Below, piece by piece: positions 15,371 to 24,081 of a stretch of DNA of 28,658 nucleotides; position 1 is the first letter of the stretch; every line of letters begins with the position of its first letter. A model generated the notes under the pieces. The model did no database searches, was not told the origin of the DNA, and saw only the letters and a program-made list of their open reading frames with translations. This DNA comes from a virus. The stretch lies in the IMG/VR virus record IMGVR_UViG_3300028025_004292, positions 1 to 28,658 of that record; one strand, 5' to 3'. A program made the position numbers and the translations under genes.

Positions 15371-15442
15371 AGCTTTCGACAGGACTCGAACCTGCAATAT
15401 CCGGCTTACAAAGTCGGCGCTTCACCATTAAGCTACGAAAGC
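15371..15442 (-). tRNA. tRNA-Thr (anticodon UGU)
   Basis: Full cloverleaf on the - strand: acceptor GCTTTCG pairs with CGAAAGC; D arm GCTT/AAGC with loop AATGGTG; anticodon stem CCGAC/GCCGG with one A-C mismatch and loop TTTGTAA (anticodon TGT); variable loop ATATT; T arm GCAGG-TTCGAGT-CCTGT. Total 72 bases with U as discriminator; no encoded CCA. It reads ACA codons, and may read ACG by wobble. It sits 6 bases after the exonuclease gene and 8 before the last - strand gene, so it is probably cut from their transcript. Confidence 0.9.
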
Positions 15443-19828: not shown

Positions 19829-20008
19829 TTATTTGTTTATTATCCAAGTGATGTCCTTGCCTTCCTTAGACACTGAATAGGGTCTATTGGGAATGCAAGC
19901 GGTTTCTGCTGGTTTCTTTGGTTTTTCTTCTGGTGGTTTCACAACTGGTTTAACAGTCGCTTCTTCCATGCTAATAATGTTACCGAAAAGATCAATCTGC
20001 TTGTTCAT
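19829..20008 (-). CDS. Small protein with possible sliding-clamp-binding motif (59 aa)
   Basis: The start at 20008 gives MNKQIDLFGNIISMEEATVK, followed by a Pro/Lys-rich stretch and SKEGKDITWIIN. QIDLFG fits the bacterial beta-clamp binding consensus (QLxLF). It overlaps the helicase end by 17 bases. Function unknown; a clamp or replisome contact is an inference from the motif alone. Confidence 0.65.
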   Translation of the reverse strand: MNKQIDLFGNIISMEEATVKPVVKPPEEKPKKPAETACIPNRPYSVSKEGKDITWIINK

Positions 20009-21254
20009 AAAACCATGTGTGATTGGCAAAATACTTAATGCGTGAGAATGCAAGTGGGCCGTCGCGTAGCTTGAGTTGCAGCAGTTCGTAGTCGTAGGTG
20101 GACTGTCCGAGTTCCTGCGGGCTACCACTGTGGCTCTTGCTGGGACGGTGCAGGGCGATAATGCGGTGGGCATCTTCTTCTATGCTTCCTGCGTCACGGA
20201 AGTCTGTACGGCTTGGTGCTCTGTCTTCACGTTCGTTGCCACGATTCAATTGAGCCGCGACGATGAGCGCACAACCCACGGTCTTACGCAGCGGTATCAT
20301 AGCCTTGGACAGTTGTCCCATGCGTTCGTAAGCCGAGCCGTCTGTACCCCGGATGAGTCCAAGGTAGTCGAGGATGACAAGCTGAGGCTTCCAAGAGGCG
20401 GCGAGCAAGCGGCAGCGGTTCTCGATTTGGGTTATGCTCATATCCTTGTCGAACACCCTGAGCTGTTGGCCGCTGAGTCGTTTAAGCTCCTTGAAATAGT
20501 CGCCCTGCTTGTCGGCAAACTCGTGATTGAGCGCCCGTAGGTTCACCCTGGCCCGCTGTCCCGCTATCTGCTTAATTACAGCGTTGGCCGAGGTTTCTAA
20601 CGTAAAATAGGCCACTCGTAAGCCTCTGTTGAGGTTGTGGCTGGCTATCTGGGACATGAACGACGACTTGCCAATAGAGGTGCGAGCGCCGACAACGACA
20701 TATTCATGGGCTTCGATGGGCTGGGCTAGGTTGTCGAAGCTGGGCAGACCCGTCGTTATGACATCCTTGTTGTCCCGTGTGCCCGCAATTTCCTGCTCGG
20801 CCCATAGCTTCACCTCCCCAATGAGCTGCTCAAGGCTAGGAGCCTCGCTTTCTGTGGGTTTTAAGAGCCCTTGCAGCCCTTCTACGGCCTTTGCCACCTC
20901 CTCGGCCTTCCCGCCCCTAGAAATGCACGCAATGGCGTCCTGAAGGGCTGGCTTGAGGACAGCCAGTTGGCCTTCCCATATCAGCTTCTTCAGGGCTTTC
21001 TTGCCAGTTATACTGCTAGAGCAGGATTTCTCGGCCTCAAACAGCTCTGTGGCAGGGCATTGGTCGCCCATTGCCATGTAAACACTGGACGTGTCTGTGA
21101 GCTGTCCCTTACTTCTAAGGGCTACCAGAGATTGCCAGAGCGATAGGTGCTTCGTGTCGGTGAAGGCACTATTGGAGAGTCCTCCACTAATGGCTGAGTC
21201 GATGAGGTCGGGGTCTGCGAGGCAGGCTCCGATGAAGATTTGTTCTGTTTGCAT
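19992..21254 (-). CDS. dnaB-like: DnaB-family replicative helicase
   Basis: 420 residues, near the usual length for phage forms. The N-terminal domain (~1-130) carries the DnaB-N-like start EQIFIGACLADPDLIDSAI. The RecA-type core contains Walker A GARTSIGKSS (189-198), FTLETSANAVIKQI, Walker B LVILDYLGLI (292-301) and the signature AAQLNRGNERE with RTDFRDAGSIEEDAHRII (348-366). It would unwind DNA at the phage fork; no primase domain is fused. Leader: AAACAAAAACAA before the ATG with no Shine-Dalgarno. A 72-aa frame overlaps its first 133 bases. Confidence 0.93.
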   Translation of the reverse strand: MQTEQIFIGACLADPDLIDSAISGGLSNSAFTDTKHLSLWQSLVALRSKGQLTDTSSVYMAMGDQCPATELFEAEKSCSSSITGKKALKKLIWEGQLAVLKPALQDAIACISRGGKAEEVAKAVEGLQGLLKPTESEAPSLEQLIGEVKLWAEQEIAGTRDNKDVITTGLPSFDNLAQPIEAHEYVVVGARTSIGKSSFMSQIASHNLNRGLRVAYFTLETSANAVIKQIAGQRARVNLRALNHEFADKQGDYFKELKRLSGQQLRVFDKDMSITQIENRCRLLAASWKPQLVILDYLGLIRGTDGSAYERMGQLSKAMIPLRKTVGCALIVAAQLNRGNEREDRAPSRTDFRDAGSIEEDAHRIIALHRPSKSHSGSPQELGQSTYDYELLQLKLRDGPLAFSRIKYFANHTWFYEQAD

Positions 21255-21340
21255 TTGTTTTTGTTTCTAAAAATTGAGTCGTAGTTGTTGCGGTATTGCG
21301 GAGTGCAAGACCTGTTTCGATCTCCTTTTCCGTTGCTCAT
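21122..21340 (-). CDS. Small protein starting MSNGKGDRNRS, overprinting the helicase 5' end (72 aa)
   Basis: The first ~28 residues (MSNGKGDRNRSCTPQYRNNY, then DSIFRN) match an N-terminal pattern I know from many small phage proteins (GKGDxxRP...YxxNYDxIF). The rest, Ser/Thr/Pro-rich, is read from inside the helicase gene in another frame. The start overlaps the 14-codon ORF by ATGA. The N-terminus is likely real; how much of the overlapped tail matters is unclear. Confidence 0.6.
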   Translation of the reverse strand: MSNGKGDRNRSCTPQYRNNYDSIFRNKNKCKQNKSSSEPASQTPTSSTQPLVEDSPIVPSPTRSTYRSGNLW

Positions 21341-21381
21341 AAATCGTGTTTGTTAACGTTAGCGTTGATTGGTTGTTTCAT
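21337..21381 (-). CDS. 14-codon coupled mini-ORF
   Basis: Reads MKQPINANVNKHDL. It starts by ATGA overlap with the 67-aa gene and ends by ATGA overlap with the next gene. An AAGGAGG lies 7 bases before its ATG, unusual in this genome. It may be a coupling peptide that carries ribosomes to the 72-aa gene. Too short for any functional claim. Confidence 0.4.
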   Translation of the reverse strand: MKQPINANVNKHDL

Positions 21382-21396
21382 TTGCTGGCCTCCTTC
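21378..21396. repeat. Gene-boundary repeat B2, copy 2
   Basis: Identical to 21712-21730. Joins the 67-aa gene to the 14-codon ORF. Confidence 0.75.
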
Positions 21397-21581
21397 CATT
21401 GAAAAGTAGATTTTCCGTCTTTGTTAGCCACCCAAATTGCGTGGCCCTTAACAACGGCTTCTTTTTCTTTTTCCCTAATCGCATGGCTTTCTCCACATGA
21501 ACAGCCCACCATGAAAATGACAAATGCGAGAAGAAAAATCATGAAAACCGTCGCTAAACCGAAATCGTTATTGTCGCTCAT
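21378..21581 (-). CDS. Single-pass membrane protein (67 aa)
   Basis: A membrane segment near the N-terminus (LATVFMIFLLAFVIFMVGCS, ~9-28) is followed by a charged linker and a C-terminal AVVKGHAIWVANKDGKSTFQ, WKEASK. I recall 'one TM then EAxxxGxAxYV...GxxxFxW' as a recurrent small phage family of unknown role. Coupled by ATGA at both ends. Confidence 0.7.
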   Translation of the reverse strand: MSDNNDFGLATVFMIFLLAFVIFMVGCSCGESHAIREKEKEAVVKGHAIWVANKDGKSTFQWKEASK

Positions 21582-21598
21582 TTGATTTTATTTGGTTT
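21576..21598. repeat. Gene-boundary repeat B1, copy 2
   Basis: Matches 22006-22028 at 22 of 23 bases. Joins the 45-aa gene (ending NKIK) to the 67-aa gene (starting MS). Confidence 0.65.
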
Positions 21599-21715
21599 AG
21601 GTTCAGTCTTGAAATTATTGATTCTCATTTTAATTGCGTAACCCTCGGCGTCTAATTTAGCAATCTCAGCGGCTGTTCTCAGGTCGCGCTTATATTCTTT
21701 AGATTCTGTGCTCAT
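21578..21715 (-). CDS. Small charged hypothetical protein (45 aa)
   Basis: From ATG at 21715 to TGA at 21578, with ATGA overlaps at both ends and AAGGAGG 7 bases upstream of the ATG. The product begins MSTESKEYKRDLRTAAEIAK and ends TEPKPNKIK. It fills a gap that would otherwise be about 130 bases. Function unknown. Confidence 0.65.
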   Translation of the reverse strand: MSTESKEYKRDLRTAAEIAKLDAEGYAIKMRINNFKTEPKPNKIK

Positions 21716-21730
21716 TTGCTGGCCTCCTTC
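21712..21730. repeat. Gene-boundary repeat B2, copy 1
   Basis: Nineteen bases identical to 21378-21396. On the - strand it contains AAGGAGGCCAGCAAATGA: end of one gene, ribosome-binding site and start of the next. Confidence 0.75.
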
Positions 21731-22011
21731 ATGGCTTTGTCGATGCTTGCGCGATTAATTGACCGTATGCGCCAATCTTCCAGAGCCTCTTTTTCAAGCC
21801 AATCCATCCGCGCTGTGTCGGCGGCAACCCGCGCATCCACCATCTTCTGAATTTGCTCTTCAAACGAAGCGATTAACAATTTCGCCGCTTCTTGCGTGGC
21901 TTCTTCTTTGGACAAGCCTTCGCCGCAAATCATGCGACCCTCTGAGGTAATGCGAAGCACTGCGAGATTTGAATTGTTAAAAGTTATTTGGGAATTGGTA
22001 GTATAGCTCAT
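21712..22011 (-). CDS. Hypothetical protein (99 aa)
   Basis: Beta-like N-terminus (LAVLRITSEGRMICGEGLS), then a helix (KEEATQEAAKLLIASFEEQI) and the phrase RMDWLEKEALEDWRIR, which is common in small phage hypothetical proteins. Ends with MKEASK, nearly the same end as the 67-aa protein. Function unknown. Confidence 0.65.
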   Translation of the reverse strand: MSYTTNSQITFNNSNLAVLRITSEGRMICGEGLSKEEATQEAAKLLIASFEEQIQKMVDARVAADTARMDWLEKEALEDWRIRSINRASIDKAMKEASK

Positions 22012-22028
22012 TTGATTTTCTTTGGTTT
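22006..22028. repeat. Gene-boundary repeat B1, copy 1
   Basis: Twenty-three bases with one difference from 21576-21598. On the - strand it covers the KIK-stop end of the 69-aa gene and the MS start of the 99-aa gene. Confidence 0.65.
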
Positions 22029-22217
22029 TTTAAGCTGTGCAATTGCTGAGTCTAATGCGTCCCTGACATTCTTTATTCCAGATCGGCGATTGGTTCCATT
22101 TTCTGTTCCAAGCTGCCAATACCATCCCGCGCCATCACCGCCCATTTTGGCCGAGTATCCAATTTCCAGTAATGAGTTGGCGTTCCAGAAATCAAGTCGT
22201 TCTTTATCTGTGTTCAT
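22008..22217 (-). CDS. Hypothetical protein (69 aa)
   Basis: A compact protein beginning MNTDKERLDFWNANSLLEIG, with a Trp/Gly centre (GDGAGWYWQLG) and a helical end (NVRDALDSAIAQLKKPKKIK). ERLDFWNAN resembles the ERxxWL start of many phage accessory proteins. ATGA overlaps on both sides. Function unknown. Confidence 0.65.
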   Translation of the reverse strand: MNTDKERLDFWNANSLLEIGYSAKMGGDGAGWYWQLGTENGTNRRSGIKNVRDALDSAIAQLKKPKKIK

Positions 22218-22510
22218 TTCTTCTTTGGTTTCCGCCAGCTAATGTTCTCTAGCGTTGGGTTGTTGTTGTCTCTGTTCTGTTGGATTAGACGATAGACTGA
22301 AGGCTGAGAAAGCCCGCTGCGCTTCTGGATTTGCTTGTACGTCATACCCGCCAGATGGTCTGTGTAAACGTCTAAGGCTTCCTTGGCTGTGATGGGCTTG
22401 CGGAATTTGTATTCCTTCTCATTGATGCCAGTGGCAAATCCTGTGGCATACGTCGCGTAGTGCTTGTTAAGCAGGTAGCGCACATTGTTCATAATTTCGG
22501 ATGCGTTCAT
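22214..22510 (-). CDS. Helix-turn-helix DNA-binding protein (98 aa)
   Basis: I chose ATG at 22510 because it overlaps the upstream stop by ATGA; an alternative at 22522 adds four residues. Residues ~52-80 form a helix-turn-helix: MTYKQIQKRSGLSQPSVYRL then IQQNR. Probably a transcription regulator or replication factor; no ligand or cleavage domain is seen. Confidence 0.7.
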   Translation of the reverse strand: MNASEIMNNVRYLLNKHYATYATGFATGINEKEYKFRKPITAKEALDVYTDHLAGMTYKQIQKRSGLSQPSVYRLIQQNRDNNNPTLENISWRKPKKK

Positions 22511-22875
22511 TCGTCCTCCCATTTACCAATCGTGCGTAGAAAAGCCTTGGCGCGTTGCGCGGCGGTGGCATGAAATATATCTATGCATCCCATGCTTGCG
22601 GTGAGGATGTTGCTGTAGGTTTCCCAGCACCCGCAGAATCCGTCTTTCGTCAGCAGCACCTTCTCCGCCTCATGCATGGCATTAAGATTATTAAGATAAT
22701 CGGGAAGATTCTCTGTTAGAACGCCTTTTTCTTTACGTCTAAAAACCCTAGTATGAATTGGCTCATAGCCGCCCTTGTAGTCGTTAAGCTCGGCGTTCCA
22801 TGTAGGGACATCGGCATATTCGCGGGTCCACCCACACGCTTCTGCGATGGCGATACGTTGTTTTTCTTTGTTCAT
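22507..22875 (-). CDS. Phage ABA-sandwich-type protein (122 aa)
   Basis: IAIAEACGWTREY near the start, DYLNNLNAMHEAEKVL in the middle and HATAAQRAKAFLRTIGKW at the end are the hallmarks of a common phage family (ABA-sandwich domain). Function is not established. A TATAAT-containing candidate promoter lies about 50 bases upstream of its A-rich leader. Confidence 0.75.
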   Translation of the reverse strand: MNKEKQRIAIAEACGWTREYADVPTWNAELNDYKGGYEPIHTRVFRRKEKGVLTENLPDYLNNLNAMHEAEKVLLTKDGFCGCWETYSNILTASMGCIDIFHATAAQRAKAFLRTIGKWEDE

Positions 22876-23520: not shown

Positions 23521-24081
23521 TTAGTTGAATGGGTTTTCAATCATTTTCTTGAATTGTTTTAATTGGGCATCCCGCGCAGCACCCAGCGCAGCAGCCCCCG
23601 CAGCACCCGCAGCCCACGCAGCATACCACGCAGCATCCGCAGAACCCCGCGCAGCATCCGCAGAACCCCACGCAGCATACCACGCAGCATCCGCAGCACC
23701 CCGCGCAGCACCCCGCGCAGCACCCGCAGCATCCGCAGAACCCGCAGCATCCGCAGAACCCGCAGAACCCCGCGCAGCATCCCACGCAGCACGCAACTCC
23801 TCTACGCTGGCTTTTCCTAAAGCAAAGCGTTCAGCTACGTCGAGCGCGTCAAGGCTACGTTTGTCTTTCATTAGATGCTGGACTTGGCGAGCGCACCAGA
23901 CGGCGAATAGACGAAGCTCCTTTTCTGGCTTGTTGGGTTGCTTTGCAAGCATCCAAAATAGCCATTCCAACTTAGGACAGTTGTCCCAAACTTCAGCAAG
24001 GGATTTTTGGGTTCGAGCATAAGCCGCGCCTTCGCGGCAAGCGTTGTGTTTTTGTAGGTAGTTTTCAATTTCTGTTTTCAT
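23521..24081 (-). CDS. Ala-rich repeat protein with putative immunity-protein-like N-terminus (186 aa)
   Basis: The N-terminal ~95 residues read like the 'putative immunity protein' family often seen in phages: NACREGAAYARTQKSLAEVW, then KELRLFAVWCARQVQHL and ALDVAERFALGKASVEELRA. The next ~75 residues are Ala-rich three- and four-residue repeats (GSADAA, AWYAAW), encoded by a GC-rich minisatellite at 23575-23798. The end LKQFKKMIENPFN is normal sequence. Ala every 3-4 residues suggests a long helix. Role unknown; a toxin-immunity function is a family name only, not evidence here. Confidence 0.75.
   Translation of the reverse strand: MKTEIENYLQKHNACREGAAYARTQKSLAEVWDNCPKLEWLFWMLAKQPNKPEKELRLFAVWCARQVQHLMKDKRSLDALDVAERFALGKASVEELRAAWDAARGSAGSADAAGSADAAGAARGAARGAADAAWYAAWGSADAARGSADAAWYAAWAAGAAGAAALGAARDAQLKQFKKMIENPFN
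23575..23798. repeat. GC-rich coding minisatellite
   Basis: Imperfect 9- and 12-base units built on CGCAGCATC, CGCAGAACC and CGCAGCACC, in frame with the Ala-rich gene. All units are multiples of three, so gain or loss would change length without breaking the frame. The repeat also opens long false frames on other frames and the opposite strand. Confidence 0.85.

Follow-up and report, generated by a model that had tools for sequence, protein, structure and literature searches.

A row of small genes in the window, by which we mean the whole 28,658-base virus record IMGVR_UViG_3300028025_004292 (possibly a fragment), is held together by short repeated junctions that are probably reusable linkers between gene cassettes, the linker B2 comprising 16-19 bases. 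A cassette would be a small gene reaching from the ATG of one linker to the end of the next, and each linker would hold the last 4-6 codons of a cassette, its stop, the ribosome-binding site for the next gene and the ATG of that gene. Recombination from one linker to another, be it inside a single genome or among co-infecting phages, could then delete, insert or replace whole genes. Sequence comparison establishes that identical linkers join unrelated genes, that breakpoints between related viruses fall at linkers, that the same slots exist both empty and filled, and that different backgrounds share a pool of gene families.

The repeated junctions and the genes between them

The interval from the HTH gene to the helicase, read on the - strand, contains small genes of 69, 99, 45 and 67 aa together with a 14-aa ORF and a 72-aa ORF. 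Five 4-base ATGA overlaps link consecutive ORFs from the HTH gene through the four small genes to the 14-aa ORF (98, 69, 99, 45, 67 and 14 aa). The genes and junctions, in reading order, are as follows.

22214..22510, - strand: HTH gene, 98 aa, with weak HTH matches; constant upstream flank of the cassettes
22214..22231, - strand: third junction, AAACCAAAGAAGAAATGA; HTH gene tail KPKKK* and overlap with the start of orf69
22008..22217, - strand: orf69 cassette; relatives in L004 (87% aa, same place) and L021 (90% aa, other gene context)
22008..22028, - strand: B1, AAACCAAAGAAAATCAAATGA; orf69 tail KPKKIK* and ATGA overlap with orf99
21712..22011, - strand: orf99 cassette; family in three backgrounds (helicase, 272-aa gene, RusA)
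21712..21730, - strand: B2, GAAGGAGGCCAGCAAATGA; orf99 tail KEASK*, SD GGAGG 7 nt before the ATG, ATGA overlap with orf45
21578..21715, - strand: orf45 cassette; accompanies orf67 in L051
21578..21598, - strand: B1'; orf45 tail and ATGA overlap with orf67
21378..21581, - strand: orf67 cassette; one hydrophobic stretch by eye; relative in L051 (94% aa)
21378..21396, - strand: B2'; orf67 tail KEASK*, SD GGAGG, ATGA overlap with the 14-aa stub
21337..21381, - strand: 14-aa ORF, candidate C-terminal stub; the larger gene has 207 aa in L070
21122..21340, - strand: 72-aa ORF, overlapping the 14-aa stub and the helicase
19992..21254, - strand: DnaB-type helicase (PF03796, 8.4e-40); constant downstream flank

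Each junction consists of the final codons of one gene and the ATGA stop/start overlap, to which B2 adds a ribosome-binding site, and the B1 and B2 types alternate along the - strand. The sequence-only reading had described such alternating shared junctions between different small genes, and its description holds: B2 and B2' are identical over 19 bases (GAAGGAGGCCAGCAAATGA), B1 and B1' agree at 22 of 23 (AAACCAAAGAAAATCAAATGAGC, with T in place of G in B1'), the third junction at 22214-22231 (AAACCAAAGAAGAAATGA) retains the AAACCAAAG part of B1, and the junction coordinates were off by a few bases at most. Its statement that the intervening genes differ holds as well; a comparison of orf67, orf45, orf99 and orf69 revealed no significant DNA or protein similarity beyond the junctions.

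The repetition of B1 and B2 exceeds chance. Among 24,090 pairs of ATGA-anchored 24-mers from both strands of the window, B2/B2' is the best (an identical run of 19) and B1/B1' ranks third (a run of 12). With up to three mismatches allowed, the B1 21-mer matches twice, where 100 shuffles average 0.00. The B2 16-mer also has two matches, both exact, where the shuffles average 0.28 and 3 of the 100 likewise reach two.

No convincing PHROG match was found for the cassette proteins, weak matches being confined to the HTH flank, and the orf99 protein has no match at E 0.01 among 50,697 phage records from cultured phages. The helicase does match cultured phages, every match lying below 60% identity.

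The order B1-B2-B1'-B2' could also reflect an ancient tandem duplication of a pair of genes, followed by replacement of its contents, which the sequence-only reading had offered as one origin. The alternation is what such a history would leave; however, the genes at matching positions have no homology, the segment from B2 to B2', holding orf45-B1'-orf67, occurs as a block in L051, and L004 has B1 right before its orf67 relative. The duplication is thus already largely refuted by its non-homologous contents, and we reject it as very improbable.

Breakpoints in close relatives

A search with the helicase yielded 31 loci, seven of which also carry a close HTH relative; all of the relatives are metagenomic contigs. 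In window coordinates, homology with L004 extends over 22510-22002 and 21395-21104, with L006 over 22510-22209 and 21396-21104, with L005 and L007 over 22510-22196 and 21396-21100, and with L003 over 22510-22203 and 21404-21106. The check proposed in the sequence-only reading, a search for homology breakpoints in relatives, therefore places them at the junctions in five of the seven: homology breaks at junction 22214 or B1 and again at B2', where it resumes. The other two, L008 and L009, agree partly; their downstream block starts from 21334, past B2' and within the 72-aa ORF, which counts against the linker reading.

Between these constant flanks the contents vary. The window has orf69, orf99, orf45 and orf67, and L004 has an orf69-like gene, an orf67-like gene, immediately preceded by B1, and orf75; L003 has an orf67-like gene only, L006 an orf99-like gene only, and L005 and L007 a 97-aa gene. 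The occurrence of the same arrangements in different metagenomes (L005 and L007; L059 and L097) argues against chance misassembly. Moreover, the HTH gene ends in KPKKK* in both loci where orf69 follows (the window and L004) and in the B1-type tail K[P/A]KKIK* in five of the six without it (L003, L005, L006, L007 and L009), L008 reading on; this pattern would be explained if orf69 was gained or lost through an exchange at the tail. At the other end of the row, the 14-aa ORF that follows B2' is similar to the final codons of the 207-aa gene of L070 (81% over window 21366-21270), and is likely a C-terminal stub, the body of the larger gene having been lost at B2'.

In L005 (5572-5862) a B2 copy lies within a longer reading frame and is read in another frame (DGGQQM); it looks like an old joint that has become part of a gene.

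The linker in other virus groups and a shared pool of cassettes

B1 is restricted to close relatives of the window (5 contigs) apart from one unrelated match, L156. B2 is far from so confined. The segment from B2 to B2' (window 21725-21378) recurs in L051 as a 366-bp block that is 92% identical, is bounded by B2-type joints and has neighbours on both sides that differ from those in the window. Moreover, a scan of IMG/VR with the B2 16-mer returned at least 119 stretches, 11 of which, among those matches, hold two or three copies. A control with a permuted spacer and the same SD and ATGA gave 19 stretches in the same collection, none with two copies. A second control, in which three other Ala-codon versions of the 16-mer were pooled, gave one multi-copy stretch among at least 120. 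Single copies of B2 in the collection are partly background, the three other Ala-codon versions together also reaching at least 120 stretches, a lower bound that allows no comparison of density with B2.

The multi-copy stretch of the synonymous-codon control, L329, belongs to a 74-kb virus contig that carries its own linker version, GGAGGCAAGC[A/G]AATGA, at five successive small-gene joints (826-2464).

Empty and filled forms of one slot can be compared directly in a second virus group. In L143 a single linker directly joins a gene of 55 aa to one of 272 aa, the latter without a Pfam match; the two are identical to those of L131 at 149 of 149 nt and 584 of 600, respectively. Between the same flanks L131 holds 651 bp with three genes, L144 627 bp with partly different genes, and L214 one 123-aa cassette. 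The RusA locus (PF05866) forms a third group, in which 0 (L069), 1 (L059, L097, L105 and L117) or 2 (L049 and L104) cassettes stand in front of RusA; 80 RusA loci were collected, 12 of them without an upstream chain by the gene walker. The suggestion that the junctions act as short homology sites for swapping genes with start-stop coupling kept is therefore supported by breakpoints in close relatives of the window as well as in two further groups.

A count of families by background, made at E 1e-4 after 24 repeated contigs were dropped, places the orf99 family in 5 helicase, 12 RusA, 3 272-aa-gene and 2 other loci. The family of orf75 from L004, the PRTDEQ family and the KRRKE family each occur in two or more backgrounds, and close relatives of orf67 and orf45 turned up nowhere outside the window and L051 (E 1e-4). 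One pool of small gene families thus circulates among these backgrounds.

In a collection of bacterial genomes the B2 18-mer has 28 matches, all single-copy and in scattered phyla, and 24 of the 28 lie at gene joints. No cassette relatives were found beside any of the 28; given this scatter and the absence of such relatives, no host is named.

Are the linkers exchanged or merely selected?

It could be that illegitimate breaks occur anywhere and that only those survivors remain in which a boundary keeps a working SD and start-stop overlap, the linker then being a good ribosome-binding site that travels with cassettes and does not itself recombine. The GGAGG placed 7 nt before the ATG of B2 fits this account, as do the bacterial 18-mer matches at gene joints. 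A site-by-site comparison bears on it. For 107 B2-like sites, pairs drawn from different loci were judged by the flanking 60 nt to the left and to the right, the 18 linker bases being excluded: only one side was alike in 86 pairs, both in 15, neither in 5467, and 66 were unclear. At 1024 further ATGA joints in these loci, a set that includes spurious frames, only one side was alike in 1433 pairs and both in 1253, so that one-sided homology is a feature of other SD and ATGA junctions as well, which selection would predict. However, its share is 86 of 101 at B2-like sites against 1433 of 2686 at the others. Gene boundaries are generally frequent breakpoints in these viruses, and B2 more so, differing by degree.

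The contrast can be extreme, as between L004 and L131, where 60 of 60 positions right of the linker are identical and 20% of those to the left. Moreover, 199 of 798 BLAST HSP ends lie, on at least one side, no more than 6 nt from a B2-like site, against a mean of 26.8 and a maximum of 63 in a null of 500 site shifts; identical linkers can slightly attract BLAST ends, an effect from which the 60-nt flank test is free. The breakpoint counts are phylogenetically non-independent, and many of the loci were chosen for holding B2. Some exchanges, in part of the orf99 family, fall inside genes, which counts against the linker reading.

Codon usage within the linker is also informative. Position-wise conservation is biased, since the exact 16-mer served to retrieve the majority of the loci. 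In its place we took 116 loci retrieved through protein similarity, a few of the queries being genes beside B2. The commonest tail at the ATGA junctions of this set is EASK* (26 of 878, spurious frames included), and 25 of the 26 use identical codons out of 96 possible codings, which indicates that DNA is shared and not only a peptide. Selection for a C-terminal peptide (KEASK or KPKKIK), for instance as a degradation or targeting tag with DNA identity merely following, could draw on the tails being in frame in the window genes and on the conservative variants KEVSK, KETSK and KEGSK. Yet that single coding shared by nearly all EASK tails is not what a tag would leave, and the amino acids vary (KEVSK, KEVTK, KEGSK) while SD and spacing stay; the tag reading is accordingly disfavoured and extremely improbable.

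The same conservation of silent codon positions, together with that of the spacer, speaks against selection for translation as the only force, as does the gap between the permuted-spacer control and B2 itself in number of stretches and in multi-copy occurrence. Furthermore, the same kind of gene pair works with different junction sequences. The sequence-only reading had regarded junctions that diverge while the genes stay fixed as evidence against exchange. That pattern was found only in part, at the RusA locus, where more distant relatives keep the HTH-RusA gene pair with other SD and ATGA junctions. As the same joint type works with other sequences there, translation alone does not seem to demand B2. 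Selection alone is, on balance, unlikely. The best fit is a linker of common descent that spread together with the cassettes and came to be used as a joint again and again.

How exchange might work

With one linker at the end of many unrelated genes, recombination from linker to linker would leave a working stop/SD/start joint; an exchange at B2 would not disturb the register of stop, ribosome-binding site and start, and any cassette could accordingly fit any slot. Linker homology might drive the exchange through a phage annealing/exonuclease system or host recombination, and selection would retain those products that are still translated properly. We infer both the help that the shared 16-19 bases give to exchange and the recombination enzyme behind it. 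An identity of 16-19 bp is short for RecA-type recombination. The window encodes a PD-(D/E)XK exonuclease (PHROG 298 at 1e-15, PF12705 at 9e-5) and HNH endonucleases as well; no annealing protein was recognised among its proteins.

A bolder and more tentative possibility is that the linkers form a true exchange code, in which lineage-specific dialects are kept for the capture and re-ordering of pooled accessory genes, perhaps with a dedicated phage recombination system. The dialects would then be GGAGGCCAGCAAATGA in the window, GGAGGCAAGC[A/G]AATGA in the 74-kb virus of L329 and GGAGGTTACAAAATGA at the RusA locus.

How phage accessory genes are gained and lost one by one without breakage of operons is an old question. 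Since the sites can be read directly with both empty and filled alleles, short homology becomes testable against selection alone. The linker also serves as a practical marker, since rows of small, swappable phage genes turn up when sequences are scanned for it.

Comparison with known systems

Conserved boundary sequences in phages are an old idea, of which the present linker is an unusually clear variant with unusually direct evidence. In lambdoid phages such boundary sequences are described (Clark et al., 2001; Susskind and Botstein, 1978; via PMC3029335) as short conserved edges of exchangeable modules and as proposed homologous recombination sites producing mosaic genomes. B1 and B2 are likewise short conserved sequences at the edges of non-homologous modules, and the comparative breakpoints fall at them. 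Unlike the lambdoid sequences, however, the linker repeats between unrelated single genes in one genome and includes stop, SD and start, and the same slot is seen with zero to three cassettes. A literature search, made largely without subscription papers, recognised no published description of the B2 linker.

The nin region of lambda and P22-like phages is described as a chain of small nonessential genes with ATGA overlaps that is mosaic between phages and contains a Holliday-junction resolvase (PMC8022706). The window shares the chain of ATGA-overlapping small genes; in contrast to the nin families, which lie between P and Q, its cassettes precede a DnaB helicase and have no convincing PHROG match. 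The joints of lambda nin do not repeat one sequence: among 10 gene starts the longest identical run in register is 9 nt, and lambda nin as a second case of a repeated linker is therefore unsupported.

The Start Associated Sequences of Cluster K mycobacteriophages are reported as a 13-bp GGGATAGGAGCCC with an SD core, typically 3-7 bp before the start of nonstructural genes of different families, with a proposed role in translation initiation (PMC3203893). B2 too is a repeated short sequence with an SD core before genes of different families, but it differs in sequence, spans the stop/start overlap, and its sites are gene-swap breakpoints. In the window GGGATAGGAGCCC has one match with 2 mismatches, at chance level and away from the junctions.

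A row of small-gene cassettes with shared joints also recalls the integron. No attC-like inverted repeats were seen at the window junctions, and the folds of B2 and B2' are not clearly beyond those of shuffles; with neither repeats nor fold at the junctions, the attC reading is rejected. No integron integrase was found among the window proteins scanned, the record being possibly a fragment.

Other features of the window

Upstream of the HTH gene, a 122-aa gene (22507-22875, - strand) has a homologue in L070 with 98% protein identity in another context, and its family is also a cassette before RusA in many loci. A gene further along (23521-24081, - strand), which matches PHROG 18326 (function unknown), has an alanine-rich repeat region with units such as AARGAADAAWYAAW and 9- and 12-base DNA repeats, the repeat pattern being a different one in L070. 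A tRNA-Thr gene (TGT) lies at 15371-15442 on the - strand, close to where the + strand and - strand blocks of genes meet.
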